In this document: positions 1 through 27,723 of the stretch, piece by piece
How positions within the stretch are numbered: the first letter of the stretch is position 1
Layout of the letters: each line of letters begins with the position of its first letter
Assembly (NCBI GenBank): GCA_028698215.1
Contig: JAQVDY010000015.1
Location: forward strand, 1-39,167
Source of the DNA: Actinomycetota bacterium
GTDB taxonomy: Bacteria; Actinomycetota; Humimicrobiia; Humimicrobiales; Humimicrobiaceae
Direction: 5' to 3'
DNA length: 39,167 nucleotides
Made by a program: the position numbers and the translations under genes
Notes under the pieces: model-generated
What the model was told of the DNA's origin: nothing
Seen by the model: only the letters and a program-made list of their open reading frames with translations
The model's database searches: none

Positions 1-1403
1 TAATCGGCGCCTTTAGGGCCCGGCACACTTTCCGGACCCAGGCCAGAATGCTCATATTCTTTTCGGTTATTCCCCTTTTAGCCAATATTGCCTACAATTT
101 TTTCCCCCAGGCATTACAGGGAATAGAAATAACCCCGGTCATGTTTAGCATTACCGGCATACTGATGTTTTTTGCCCTGTTCTATTACAAGCTGCTGGAC
201 ATAACCCCCATAGCCTGGGAGACCTTAATAGACGGGCTAAATGAAGGAATCCTGATATTGGATAAACAGAACCGTGTCGCTGACATAAATAATACTTTTA
301 GGGATATGCTGCACTTGGATAAACCAGCTATTGGCACCCCGGTATGCGATATTTTAGCCGCCTATCCCGATATAAAGAAATTTGTAGGCCGAAAGGACCC
401 TTCGCGCCAGGAAATATCCTTGCTTCAAAAGGGAAAGAAATATTTTTTCCTGTTTGAAAAATCCTATATCTATGACCAGAAAAATGAGTACAGGTTAGGC
501 AGCATCATCATTGCCAGGGATATTACCTTTTATCGAAAGGCCCAGCAGGAAATCCTGCAAAGTGAAGAAAAATTCAGAACCCTGTTTGAGCAATCCCTGG
601 ACGGCATATACATTACCACTACTGAAGGAAAGTTCATAGACTTAAACCAGTCCTTGGTAAATATGCTGGGTTATGGGCAAAAGAAAGACATACTATCCTT
701 AGATAGGGCCTCCCGCTTGTACCTGCACCCCGCCGATTGTCCGGAGCCGGAGCAAAACAACCAGGTGTTTGTTACCCAGCTAAAGAAAAAAAATGGGCGC
801 ATCATTGACGTAGAAATAAGTTTTTCAGTAATCCATGACCAGGATCAGCCCAAATACTGCCAGGGTATAGTAAGGGATATCACTGAACGGAAGAAGATTG
901 AAGACCAGCTAAAATACCTTTCTTTTCACGACCAGCTAACCGGACTGTATAACCGTAACTATTTTGAGCAGGAAATGAAAAGGATTAATAAAGATATAAG
1001 CCGGTTTATGCCGGTAACCGTACTTTCTGTAGATATTAACAACCTTAAGGTTATAAATGACCGGCAGGGCCATCCCCGGGGAGACCAATTGATTAAAAAA
1101 GCAGCTGAAATATTGGCCGGGATGGTAAGAAAAACAGACATACTGGCCCGGGTGGGGGGAGATGAATTTAATGCCATCCTGCCCGATACTTCCAAGGAGA
1201 CAGCCATAGCCCGGCTGGGTAATCTGGAGCAGACACTGAAAGAATATAATCAAAATTCTATTCAAATGCCTTTAAGCATGGCCATAGGGTTGGCTACAAC
1301 CCAGGAAGATGAAAAAAACCTTTTGGAGGTTATAAGAAGATCTGACCGCAGAATGTATGCCCACAAGAGGATGGCTAAATCCAGGGACCTGAATGCTAAT
1401 TAG
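1..1403 (+). CDS. Membrane-bound PAS-PAS-GGDEF diguanylate cyclase (5' end outside window)
   Basis: Predicted to make c-di-GMP from two GTP. The frame is open to the window edge, so the gene starts upstream; the first in-window Met is at 48 (451 residues from there). Numbering from that Met: two hydrophobic segments (about 1-20 and 30-48) look like the end of a histidine-kinase-type 7TM sensor region, followed by PAS domains at about 56-160 and 170-285 and a GGDEF domain at about 290-445. The catalytic motif GGDEF is intact at 370-374. An inhibitory I-site RxxD (R361, D364) lies five residues before it, so product inhibition is likely. There is no EAL or HD-GYP domain. The 3' end overlaps the convergent sugar-transferase gene by 8 bp. 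Family assignment is firm; the signal sensed is unknown. Confidence 0.9.
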   Translation, partial: IGAFRARHTFRTQARMLIFFSVIPLLANIAYNFFPQALQGIEITPVMFSITGILMFFALFYYKLLDITPIAWETLIDGLNEGILILDKQNRVADINNTFRDMLHLDKPAIGTPVCDILAAYPDIKKFVGRKDPSRQEISLLQKGKKYFFLFEKSYIYDQKNEYRLGSIIIARDITFYRKAQQEILQSEEKFRTLFEQSLDGIYITTTEGKFIDLNQSLVNMLGYGQKKDILSLDRASRLYLHPADCPEPEQNNQVFVTQLKKKNGRIIDVEISFSVIHDQDQPKYCQGIVRDITERKKIEDQLKYLSFHDQLTGLYNRNYFEQEMKRINKDISRFMPVTVLSVDINNLKVINDRQGHPRGDQLIKKAAEILAGMVRKTDILARVGGDEFNAILPDTSKETAIARLGNLEQTLKEYNQNSIQMPLSMAIGLATTQEDEKNLLEVIRRSDRRMYAHKRMAKSRDLNAN

Positions 1404-3840: not shown

Positions 3841-5853
3841 TCAGTTAATATTATCCAAATAATCCTGGCCTACCACTATGGCAATATCAGAATCGGCGCC
3901 ATATTCAGATTCAAACTTATCCTGCTGGATCTGTATTTTTTCATAGCTGTCCAAAACCAAAGCCACCTGGTCGGCCTGCTCCTTGTTCTCCTGGGTATAA
4001 TATATAACAGTTTTTTCATAATTGAAACTATCAGCATTGGCCATCTCTGAAATCTTAAACCCATACACTCTCAAATAAGAGCTCATCCTGGAAGCTACCC
4101 CGGAAATGCCATTACCATTGGCTATAAATATCCTGGTTTCAGCAGCAATTGATTTGTCCACCGTCTGGCCTACATCCACATTGATCTCCAGGGGGGTTAC
4201 CCCTTCCGCCGAAAACCAGGACACCCGCTCATGCACCAGGTCATACTGGAGAACGTATCTGCCCGGCTCCTCCGGAGAATACACCATTATGTCCTGCTCC
4301 AGCTCCTGGCCGGGTTCCAACTGTTGTATATGGAGCCTGCGGCCGTTATCCCACATAACCGGCTCCCTGGTATCCCGGTCTATCCAGTGATACCCTAAAT
4401 TAATCTCCAGGTCGGGGTTGTTTTCCCAAACCATGGAGCCTGTATTTTTTACCCATATGGTAACCGGATACTTCTCCCCCGGCTTCATATAGGAAGGAGT
4501 GGTATTAAAGTCATCATACAGGGCAGCATAATCCACATCCACTGCTACCAGTTTCTCATAAGGAGGTACGCCCTGGTAGGAAAACCAGGTTACATTTTCC
4601 TGCACCATATCTACCTGAAGCATATAGCGGCCGGAATCGGAAGGGGCCTGTATATTAAGCTCAAAAGTCGCTTCCTGGCCGGGCTCCACTGTTTCTAAAG
4701 GCAGAAAAGCCCTTTCCCCGTCAAACACCACCATCTGCCTGTTTTCAAAATCTATCCAGTGGTAGCCCAAAAAGAATGCTTCCTGTTTACCGTTTCTCTC
4801 CCAGGTCACTGCCCCCGTATTTTTTACTTTTACCTTAAACTTATAGGTAAGATTAGCCGACATGGAATCGGGCAATGCAGTTACTTCACTGTAAGCAGCA
4901 TTATATTTAGAAGCCGGCTCCCCGGCCAAAACCCTTTTCCACATGGCCCGGGCTTCTTCAATATCCGGTATCTGCACTGATATGGTACCGTCCTCTATCC
5001 AGTCAGCGTGGGAAGGTATGATGGCGGTCTGGAACTTTTCCCCATTAAAAGAAAGGGCGGCCTTGGAATACCGCAGTATAGTCATGACATCCAAATCGGT
5101 CCTGGTGTTGGAAGCCAGTATGTTAAAGTAATAGGGTACATCGGTTACATACTTTAAATTAAGTTTCTGCTCCACCAAAGCCTTAAATATCTGCTGCTGC
5201 CTTTGTATACGGCCGATATCCCCCAGCTCGGTAGAGCGGTCCCGGGTATAGGCTAAAGCCTGTTCCCCGGTAAGATGATGGGTTCCGGGAGAAAGAAAGG
5301 TTCCGCTTTTTTCATCCTCCAGAGGCCTTTCCACAGTTATATCTATTCCATCTACCGCATCCAGTATCTCTACAAAACCGTTAAAATCCAAGGTTATGTA
5401 ATGATTTATATTGGTATCCAAAAAATCTGATACAGTCTTTATCATAAGCTCTTCCTGCCCGTAAGCATAAGCAGCATTAATCTTGTCTTCCCCATAACCC
5501 GGTATCTCCACTAAAGTATCCCGGGGGATGGAAAGAAGCGTTCCTTCCACCTTGACCGGATCCAGGTAAAGCAGCATGATGGTATCCGCCCTGCCTGCCT
5601 CCTGGTCGCTATCCCTGCTGTCCCTTCCCAAGATAAGCACAGTTATAGGTTCCTGGGGGGATTCAATAGGGGTAAGTATGCTTTCCACCTCTGAAGTAGT
5701 GCCTTCATTTATGGTCTGGTTTAAGGAATTTATATAATAGAAAAATACCCCCGTTGCCGCTCCCGCCAGCACTATCAGGCTGGCAAATACAATAATTAAC
5801 ACTCTCCCGTAGCGGGGGATTCTAAAAAACCATCTTTTTTTTATTTGCTCCAT
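3841..5853 (-). CDS. LytR-CpsA-Psr (LCP) wall-polymer ligase with two Ig-like domains
   Basis: LCP enzymes move glycan polymers from undecaprenyl pyrophosphate onto peptidoglycan outside the cell. There are 670 residues: a basic N-terminus, one transmembrane segment (about 17-40), and an LCP domain (about 65-300) with the expected acidic and arginine residues (GRADT with D90, SIPRD with R111, YTRDR with R204/R206, GRIQRQQ with R215 and R218). Two tandem Ig-like repeats follow (about 316-440 and 441-562); they share GYHWID, EPGQE, GRYxLQ and WFS motifs. A LytR C-terminal domain (about 571-665) ends the protein. LCP and LytR-C are usually joined by a short linker, so the two inserted domains are unusual. 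It sits between murA (5-bp gap) and the dehydratase (4-bp gap), which fits a role in wall-glycan assembly. Confidence 0.93.
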   Translation of the reverse strand: MEQIKKRWFFRIPRYGRVLIIVFASLIVLAGAATGVFFYYINSLNQTINEGTTSEVESILTPIESPQEPITVLILGRDSRDSDQEAGRADTIMLLYLDPVKVEGTLLSIPRDTLVEIPGYGEDKINAAYAYGQEELMIKTVSDFLDTNINHYITLDFNGFVEILDAVDGIDITVERPLEDEKSGTFLSPGTHHLTGEQALAYTRDRSTELGDIGRIQRQQQIFKALVEQKLNLKYVTDVPYYFNILASNTRTDLDVMTILRYSKAALSFNGEKFQTAIIPSHADWIEDGTISVQIPDIEEARAMWKRVLAGEPASKYNAAYSEVTALPDSMSANLTYKFKVKVKNTGAVTWERNGKQEAFFLGYHWIDFENRQMVVFDGERAFLPLETVEPGQEATFELNIQAPSDSGRYMLQVDMVQENVTWFSYQGVPPYEKLVAVDVDYAALYDDFNTTPSYMKPGEKYPVTIWVKNTGSMVWENNPDLEINLGYHWIDRDTREPVMWDNGRRLHIQQLEPGQELEQDIMVYSPEEPGRYVLQYDLVHERVSWFSAEGVTPLEINVDVGQTVDKSIAAETRIFIANGNGISGVASRMSSYLRVYGFKISEMANADSFNYEKTVIYYTQENKEQADQVALVLDSYEKIQIQQDKFESEYGADSDIAIVVGQDYLDNIN

Positions 5854-26313: not shown

Positions 26314-27513
26314 CTATACCTTACTTCTTCTTACCAGCTTATAGGTCAATAACGATGCACCCAAGGCTAGGGCTGCAAAGCCTAATAATAAAAAGGCTGT
26401 ATCCATTCCGGTATAAGGCAGCTCTTCACTTACTCCCAGGACTTCTACTGCTGCCTCTTCAGTTATACCTGCCACCTCAGTCTGGCCAATGATACCAAAG
26501 TCAACATATATGGTATGATCGGCTTTTACATTAGTGAAGGCAAAGCTTTCTACTGCCCCTACCGATACTCCATCTACCATTACGTCAGATATTTCATAAC
26601 CATCATCGGGGTCCATCATATAGGTTTTACTGGCCCCTTCTGCTACTGTAGTTACTCCTTCATCAGTGATGGAGCCGCCGCTGCCCCTGGAAGCAGTAAT
26701 ATTGTAGTCCATTATTCCAGCTACGGTAACTACTGTGGTAGTAGTAGTAGTAGTTGGAGCGGTTACCACTACCTTAGCACTATCTTCATCTGTAACATAG
26801 TTCCCATTAGAGCCATTGACAACTTTAAATGCCAAAGTGTTGATACAGTAAAATCCCTTGACAGATACAGTGTTGGTAAGCTCGCCTATATCTTCTGTTT
26901 TTACCACATAGGTTGGTTTAGGGTCCAAAGTCATTGAAGCCCCTTGGGCAAGTGGGCCTACACTTTGATCTACCAACCCTAACATAAGGTCAGTTAAAGT
27001 CACATCATTAAAATCAACATTTCCCGTATTCTCAACAGTTATAGTATAGGAAATAGTATTGCCAGGATTAGCTGCAGTGGGATCAGCGGTTTTAGTAACA
27101 TTTATAGCCGGTGCCTTTATAAAAACTTCCGCAGTGACAGAATCTGATACTTCATGAGGTTCTGCAGACCGGGTCCCGGTTACAGTAGCTTCATTAACCA
27201 AATTACCCGCATAGTCATTAGGTACAATATAAGTATATTGATTTGTCCAAAATCCACCGGCGCTAATGTTAGGTAGGGCTACTTCACTAAGCCCAAGCAT
27301 TGTATCTGTAAGCTTTACGTTAGTAAGAGGATAAAACCCAGCCCAATCAATTCTAATTGTATAGGTTATAGTGTCGCCAGGGTAAGCTTCAGATAAATCT
27401 GCCGTCTTGGTAATAACAGGTTCTGCTGGCCCTGATGTCGCAAACACCGCTGTAGGCAAGCTAAACATAACCACTACCGCCACCATTAAGCCTATAATTA
27501 ATAACTTTTTCAC
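26314..27513 (-). CDS. LPYTG-anchored DUF11-repeat surface protein
   Basis: A 399-residue secreted wall-anchored protein. It has a signal peptide (about 1-26, likely cut near VFA), two DUF11 repeats (about 31-134 and 135-255, each starting with a xTKTAD motif and a PGxTIxYTI core), and a six-residue Thr linker. A divergent InlB/Flg_new-type beta repeat follows (about 274-343, GGSITDEG ... GYEISDVMVDG). The C-terminus is a sortase signal: LPYTG (365-369), a hydrophobic segment and RRSKV. The function is probably adhesive or structural. No sortase gene is in the window. The GTG start at 27513 has AGGGAG 6 nt upstream. It is expressed behind an unusual leader, listed separately. Confidence 0.92.
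   Translation of the reverse strand: MKKLLIIGLMVAVVVMFSLPTAVFATSGPAEPVITKTADLSEAYPGDTITYTIRIDWAGFYPLTNVKLTDTMLGLSEVALPNISAGGFWTNQYTYIVPNDYAGNLVNEATVTGTRSAEPHEVSDSVTAEVFIKAPAINVTKTADPTAANPGNTISYTITVENTGNVDFNDVTLTDLMLGLVDQSVGPLAQGASMTLDPKPTYVVKTEDIGELTNTVSVKGFYCINTLAFKVVNGSNGNYVTDEDSAKVVVTAPTTTTTTTVVTVAGIMDYNITASRGSGGSITDEGVTTVAEGASKTYMMDPDDGYEISDVMVDGVSVGAVESFAFTNVKADHTIYVDFGIIGQTEVAGITEEAAVEVLGVSEELPYTGMDTAFLLLGFAALALGASLLTYKLVRRSKV
26738..26752 (+). repeat. Five GTA triplets (poly-Thr codon tract)
   Basis: On the coding (minus) strand this is an ACT/TAC-phase triplet run encoding part of the Thr linker of the surface protein. Changes in copy number would stay in frame and only alter linker length. 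Confidence 0.6.
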
Positions 27514-27689
27514 AATTCACTCCCTCTCTCTTGTATGATTATTATCTATATAAATAAAAAACCGTCCAATTTCGTTCGAAATTAGCCGGTTTCGCCATTA
27601 GCTCCACTTTCCCTAGCGCCCACTTGTGAGGGATAAGCTTCTCCGCTACTGCCTACATATTTAATTTTCCAAGATTATTAAACTTATAT
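27514..27689 (-). ncRNA. Structured leader or small RNA upstream of the surface-protein gene
   Basis: Between the predicted transcription start (about 27689) and the GTG at 27513 lies a ~175-nt leader containing a strong intrinsic terminator (27555-27591). About 100 nt precede that terminator. They contain TAGCG, which can pair with CGCTA inside the leader or, with one bulged base, with CCGGCTA in the terminator's 5' arm; that would be the mutually exclusive pairing of an attenuator. Alternatively the terminated ~130-nt transcript is an independent small RNA, and the gene uses a weak promoter at about 27574-27546 (TTGGAC, 17 bp, GATAAT). I could not match it to any riboswitch class I know. 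Confidence 0.5.
27555..27591 (-). terminator. Intrinsic terminator inside the leader
   Basis: On the minus strand AACCG-gct-AATTTC-gaac-GAAATT-gga-CGGTT (27591 to 27560) forms an 11-bp stem with one 3x3 internal loop, and a run of T residues follows through 27556. It lies 47 nt before the GTG start, so it must be bypassed for the surface protein to be made from the upstream promoter. Confidence 0.7.
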
Positions 27690-27695
27690 AAGACA

Positions 27696-27723
27696 ATTAT
27701 AATAAATTTAATCATTTAGTCAA
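27696..27723 (-). promoter_or_regulatory. Strong sigma70-type promoter for the leader and surface protein
   Basis: TTGACT (27723-27718) and a perfect TATAAT (27701-27696) with a 16-bp spacer, reading on the minus strand. It is the best consensus match in the window. Confidence 0.7.

Follow-up and report, generated by a model that had tools for sequence, protein, structure and literature searches.

A slightly divergent c-di-GMP class II aptamer in the leader of a sortase-type surface-protein gene and its probable role as a transcriptional ON switch

The window studied here is a stretch of 39,167 nucleotides from an Actinomycetota bacterium. On its minus strand, a gene for a surface protein is preceded by a promoter, a structured leader and an intrinsic terminator, a layout that a first-pass annotation of the same DNA had taken for that of a riboswitch or attenuator. 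The elements at this locus, and one further gene of the window that is not part of the switch, are as follows.

27696 to 27723, minus strand: leader promoter (-35 TTGACT at 27723-27718, 16-nt spacer, -10 TATAAT at 27701-27696)
27575 to 27659, minus strand: full-length c-di-GMP-II aptamer, identified by Rfam family RF01786, by our model R1 and by a syntenic ortholog in the sister species G002
27560 to 27591, minus strand: intrinsic terminator AACCGGCUAAUUUC-GAAC-GAAAUUGGACGGUU, with a 13-pair stem of -13 kcal/mol
27552 to 27559, minus strand: U-rich tail UUUUAUUU, directly after the terminator stem
27520 to 27525, minus strand: Shine-Dalgarno sequence AGGGAG, 6 nt ahead of the GTG (AGGAAG is the G002 equivalent)
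26314 to 27513, minus strand: regulated surface-protein gene, with a GTG start at 27513 and 399 codons for amino acids
48 to 1403, plus strand: PAS-GGDEF protein, a probable c-di-GMP synthase

The overall layout was borne out. The promoter matches the consensus at 11 of 12 positions and is the best of five promoter-like sites in 700 bases, where shuffled sequence gave 2.5 +/- 1.7 sites scoring 9 or more; the transcript start is expected near 27689. In G002 the corresponding promoter consists of TTGACT and a TATACT -10 element, also spaced by 16 nt. A structured leader of about 100 nt follows on the same strand, and the terminator, which ends at 27560, lies 47 nt ahead of the GTG at 27513, both as the annotation had described. 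The fold of the entire 135-nt leader is only moderately more stable than those of its shuffles (z -2.07), and a simple terminator scan returned 0 sites, probably owing to the long, interrupted stem. The annotation had also pointed to a TAGCG segment with two alternative partners. As complementarity this holds (CGCTA at 27618-27614 and CGgCTA at 27588-27583), but complements of 5 nt are weak evidence; within the aptamer, this segment contributes its AGC to P2, and the strand that forms the pseudoknot is CGCU.

An Rfam scan at gathering thresholds reported nothing in the whole window, ribozymes included. When the Rfam comparison that the annotation had proposed was run without cut-offs on 361 bases, it gave one strong match, to c-di-GMP-II (RF01786), on the minus strand at 27659-27575, covering model positions 1-84 of 84 with 42.8 bits and an E-value of 3.2e-8 over 4227 families. 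This score lies under the curated gathering cut-off of 53.5 bits, and a routine Rfam scan therefore misses the element; in this lineage, the cut-off hides real members of RF01786. A whole-genome search with RF01786 returned the leader at E 3.6e-8 and seven other places that reach the cut-off, and at E<=0.001 the same model had no match in any of 14 control genomes. The next-best Rfam match in the 361-base region, mir-6128, had an E-value of 9.4, as expected by chance. Two families of the same clan, c-di-GMP-II-GAG (RF03169) and c-di-GMP-II-GCG (RF03170), weakly match the same place as the parent model. We rejected both as labels: each scores 35.8 bits, under the parent's 42.8 bits and under cut-offs of 40 and 47.9 bits, respectively.

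A second model, R1, was made from an alignment of 42 aptamers of the family and genus from which the window element and its ortholog were left out; these aptamers were picked by RF01786 matches, so that the model owes nothing to the window element itself but still depends on how the family is defined. Its sole hit in the 39 kb was the window element (45.5 bits, E 1e-10). The annotation had proposed looking for conserved pairing in relatives, and this was found: among the 42 aptamers, both partners vary in 23 of 28 pairs, a number that includes four of the five pseudoknot pairs, and 88% of the alignment cells are able to pair, compared with 33-45% when the partners are slid. The window element keeps 27 of the 30 positions that are conserved at >=90% in its relatives, every AACCG position included. 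It shares with RF01786 a full-length match, the P1-P2-P3-pseudoknot plan and the conserved AACCG strand, and differs from it in its sub-cut-off score, the deletion of one U, a G.A in the pseudoknot and a mismatched P1. Altogether, the sequence indicates that the leader is a slightly divergent copy of a known sensor class, c-di-GMP-II, and not a new riboswitch class. The first-pass annotation was thus right in kind, in that it read a riboswitch with a transcription-terminator platform, but wrong in its statement that the leader could not be matched to c-di-GMP. The parts of the aptamer are these.

27649 to 27659, minus strand: P1 5' strand, partner 27585-27575; G8.A78, C9.A77, U5.U81 and A2.A84 are unpaired
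27600 to 27647, minus strand: P2, AGC at 27647-27645 with GCU at 27602-27600
27606 to 27638, minus strand: P3, GCUU(A)UCCCU at 27638-27629 with AGGGAAAGU at 27614-27606, one A bulged
27592 to 27619, minus strand: pseudoknot, GCGCU at 27619-27615 with GGCGA at 27596-27592

The ligand contacts listed for the structure 3Q3Z include A69, A70, C71, C72 and G73 (PMC7288161), and we placed these on the leader by matching the sequence AACCG. This strand and the conserved A after P2 are identical to the consensus of 44 aptamers. The pseudoknot joins the P3 loop to the strand after P2 through four standard pairs (U45-G64, C44-G65, G43-C66 and C42-G67) plus G41.A68, and its middle pair is changed from A-U to G-C relative to the Rfam consensus.

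In the sister species G002, an element occupies the corresponding position: it is divergently oriented from the shared neighbour gene and precedes a gene for a related surface protein. The adjoining Sua5/YrdC proteins of the two species are 59% identical; in a scan of named genomes, this protein had only distant matches (29-34%). The syntenic aptamer scores 49.0 bits against RF01786. Between the two species the aptamer core is identical at 62 of 66 positions (94%) and the rest of the terminator at 18 of 20 (90%), compared locally with 47% for the upstream intergenic DNA and 61% for the neighbouring coding DNA. All stem positions of the terminator are identical in G002, where three of the four loop bases differ, and the promoter, aptamer, terminator and start codon are all kept. 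The surface proteins (window 26314-27513 and L016:60-1229) are 76% identical over their C-terminal 133 aa, anchor included, and dissimilar in their exposed N-terminal parts. From these sequences, the switch and the anchor appear to have stayed fixed while the exposed part between them was exchanged, a case of module exchange.

Folded in the consensus register, the P1 of the window element reaches only -0.9 kcal/mol and is among the weakest of its class. The only pairs stacked on the core are G11-C75 and A10-U76, where G002 has five continuous pairs, and the U9-A pair is replaced by C.A. These observations could mean that the leader is a decaying or de-tuned c-di-GMP-II aptamer, a homologous RNA with a poor P1 whose gene would be mostly off or weakly responsive. 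U9 is invariant in the 44 relatives, neither C9.A77 nor G8.A78 is found in G002, and some copies of c-di-GMP riboswitches in C. difficile have been reported to be nonfunctional (PMC6366702), all of which would fit such decay. The identity of core and terminator between the two species argues against it, as does the sequence AAAUUA farther upstream (27667-27662), which G002 has as well. Base-pairing of AAAUUA with UAAUUU (27584-27579) could take over part of the role of P1, and the best duplex with the upstream 30 nt reaches -3.2 kcal/mol. We regard decay as unlikely, and infer both that c-di-GMP is the ligand of the leader and that this weak-P1 copy is in working state. With so weak a P1 set against a terminator of -13 kcal/mol, the ON state would depend on ligand binding and kinetics.

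The pseudoknot edge raises a different question, that of the ligand. The linker beside the pseudoknot reads CGCUAGGG in the window and in G002, one U short of the CGCUU of their relatives, and this loss and the terminal G.A are both common to the two species. The lost feature would be either the fifth pseudoknot pair or a conserved pocket-side U, possibly U37 of 3Q3Z; the one U that remains would fit either place. A lineage-specific variant aptamer with a changed ligand preference, for instance for another cyclic dinucleotide, as in other riboswitch classes, could look like this: the missing U and the outer G.A are fixed in both species, the published list of ligand contacts has U37 and C68 near the altered edge (PMC7288161), and among 397 genomes sampled in the phylum, a zero-mismatch search for the edge pattern found it only in the window species and G002. 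However, the parent model outscores the GAG and GCG models (42.8 bits versus 35.8 and 35.8), the aptamer retains the AACCG strand along with most of the other conserved positions, and relatives with otherwise ordinary aptamers (L078, L077 and L085) have the G.A pair too. The target is of the type found behind ordinary class II switches, and GGDEF genes are many. We therefore find a changed ligand improbable, and give as little credence to the narrower claim that the edge marks a shift away from c-di-GMP while siblings in the same genome still sense it.

Taking the leader as a c-di-GMP-II aptamer, we computed how it overlaps the terminator. The terminator 5' arm consists of the ligand-contacting AACCG strand and the P1 3' strand, such that the AACCGGC strand both bears ligand-contacting nucleotides and serves as a terminator arm. 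Because they have this strand in common, the aptamer and the terminator are mutually exclusive, and ligand binding should prevent termination. In the proposed mechanism, the RNA would start near 27689, and once the polymerase had passed 27575 the aptamer, with P1, P2, P3 and the pseudoknot, would be able to bind c-di-GMP. Binding would lock the strand AACCGGCUAA into the ligand pocket and P1; as AACCGGCUAA is also the terminator 5' arm, no terminator would then form and transcription would continue into the gene. When c-di-GMP is absent, the terminator would form and an RNA of about 130 nt would be released as the OFF-state product.

The first-pass annotation had also raised a competing idea, that of a free small RNA of about 130 nt, with the gene transcribed from a weak promoter of its own that overlaps the terminator. 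A promoter-like site matching at 9 of 12 positions, TGGACG-16-GATAAT, does lie at 27568-27541, and the OFF state would yield large amounts of terminated RNA. Such a site is at chance level, however, and G002 has AGAAAA at the -10 position, so that the weak promoter is not kept there, whereas the leader elements are. The leader is moreover a full aptamer whose pocket strand is common with the terminator, and we consider a free small RNA highly improbable.

The design of the riboswitch recurs in the family. A terminator overlapping the AACCG strand was found for 24 of 49 family aptamers; two more script hits, L084 and L054, are distal terminators and are not counted among the 24. Under a strict rule for overlap, 23 of the 24 pass, compared with 2.4% when the downstream sequence is shuffled and 0 of 25 in the other platform class described below. 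In this genome, five of the seven above-cut-off aptamers have the overlapping-terminator platform, mostly before LPYTG proteins. Aptamers that score under the RF01786 cut-off and keep the overlapping terminator lie in G002:C3, G008:C54, G024:C169, G026:C33 and the window.

Class II riboswitches of C. difficile are ON switches (PMC6366702, PMC11477304). Control of pilA1 by its class II riboswitch works through termination and read-through, and sortase-dependent adhesins are also under class II control (PMC6366702, PMC11477304). The leader resembles Cdi2_4, which precedes pilA1, in combining a class II aptamer with a leader terminator that is read through at high c-di-GMP (PMC6366702). It differs in that the Cdi2_4 target is a type IV pilin and here a single LPYTG surface protein, and in its weaker P1 and lineage-specific pseudoknot edge. 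With Cdi2_1 and Cdi2_3, which precede CD3246 and CD2831, it shares a c-di-GMP-positive, sortase-dependent adhesin type of target (PMC6366702), but Cdi2_1 works through a group I ribozyme that lies some 600 nt away from its gene (PMC12564702), and no ribozyme was matched here. From the anatomy of the leader and the C. difficile precedent, we infer that the direction of regulation is ON at high c-di-GMP; the gene is most likely transcribed only when this 'settle down and stick' signal is high. The full reading, of a c-di-GMP class II riboswitch that would turn on transcription of the gene for a sortase-type surface protein, is one that we hold to be highly probable. Under it, a leader that had no assigned class becomes a testable adhesin switch under c-di-GMP control, and the known working mode of class II switches is left unchanged.

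The 399-aa protein appears to have a signal peptide, carries DUF7507/DUF11 repeats and ends in a sortase-type anchor composed of LPYTG, a hydrophobic segment and RRSKV. The genome has 13 GGDEF matches, one of them in the window (48-1403), and this PAS-GGDEF protein supports c-di-GMP signalling in the organism. No sortase (PF04203) was found in the whole genome (G000), despite the several LPYTG proteins that it encodes. G002 does have a sortase, encoded on the same contig as its matching CAP gene, and an N gap on contig C34 (L010:1138-1237) suggests that the sortase gene was perhaps lost from the assembly; given these two points, we set aside the missing sortase as an objection to the LPXTG reading.

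The groups for which class II switches are described as typical are clostridia and Deinococcus (PMC9495176), whereas the roughly eight class II switches of this genome would make up a regulon in a small-genome family that probably belongs to the Actinomycetota. This placement follows from WhiB, which 13 of the 21 genomes assigned to the same phylum carry and which, among the 14 control genomes, occurs only in Corynebacterium. A second platform class comprises 25 aptamers, including L009:1830-1990 (G000:C9) and L010:3160-3244 (G000:C34). In 22 of the 25, a GCCUC complementary to the aptamer 5' GAGGC lies in the downstream terminator or ribosome-site region. From sequence, this class is predicted to turn CAP-domain secreted proteins OFF, and it shares its genome with the ON switches of LPXTG proteins. 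On G000:C6, two tandem class II aptamers (L012:5405-5488 and 5007-5090), each with its own overlapping terminator, precede a gene for a 1211-aa SpaA/DUF5979 LPYTG protein. A very divergent class II-like aptamer with an overlapping terminator (L013:2248-2340, G000:C29:12247-12339; 28.3 bits) is followed by a gene for a 95-aa protein that is not surface-protein-like. In two other genomes, the ON-type platform stands before TadE/TadG pilus-assembly-like genes (L078:1767-1849 in G002:C36 and L085:2455-2538 in G007:C240).
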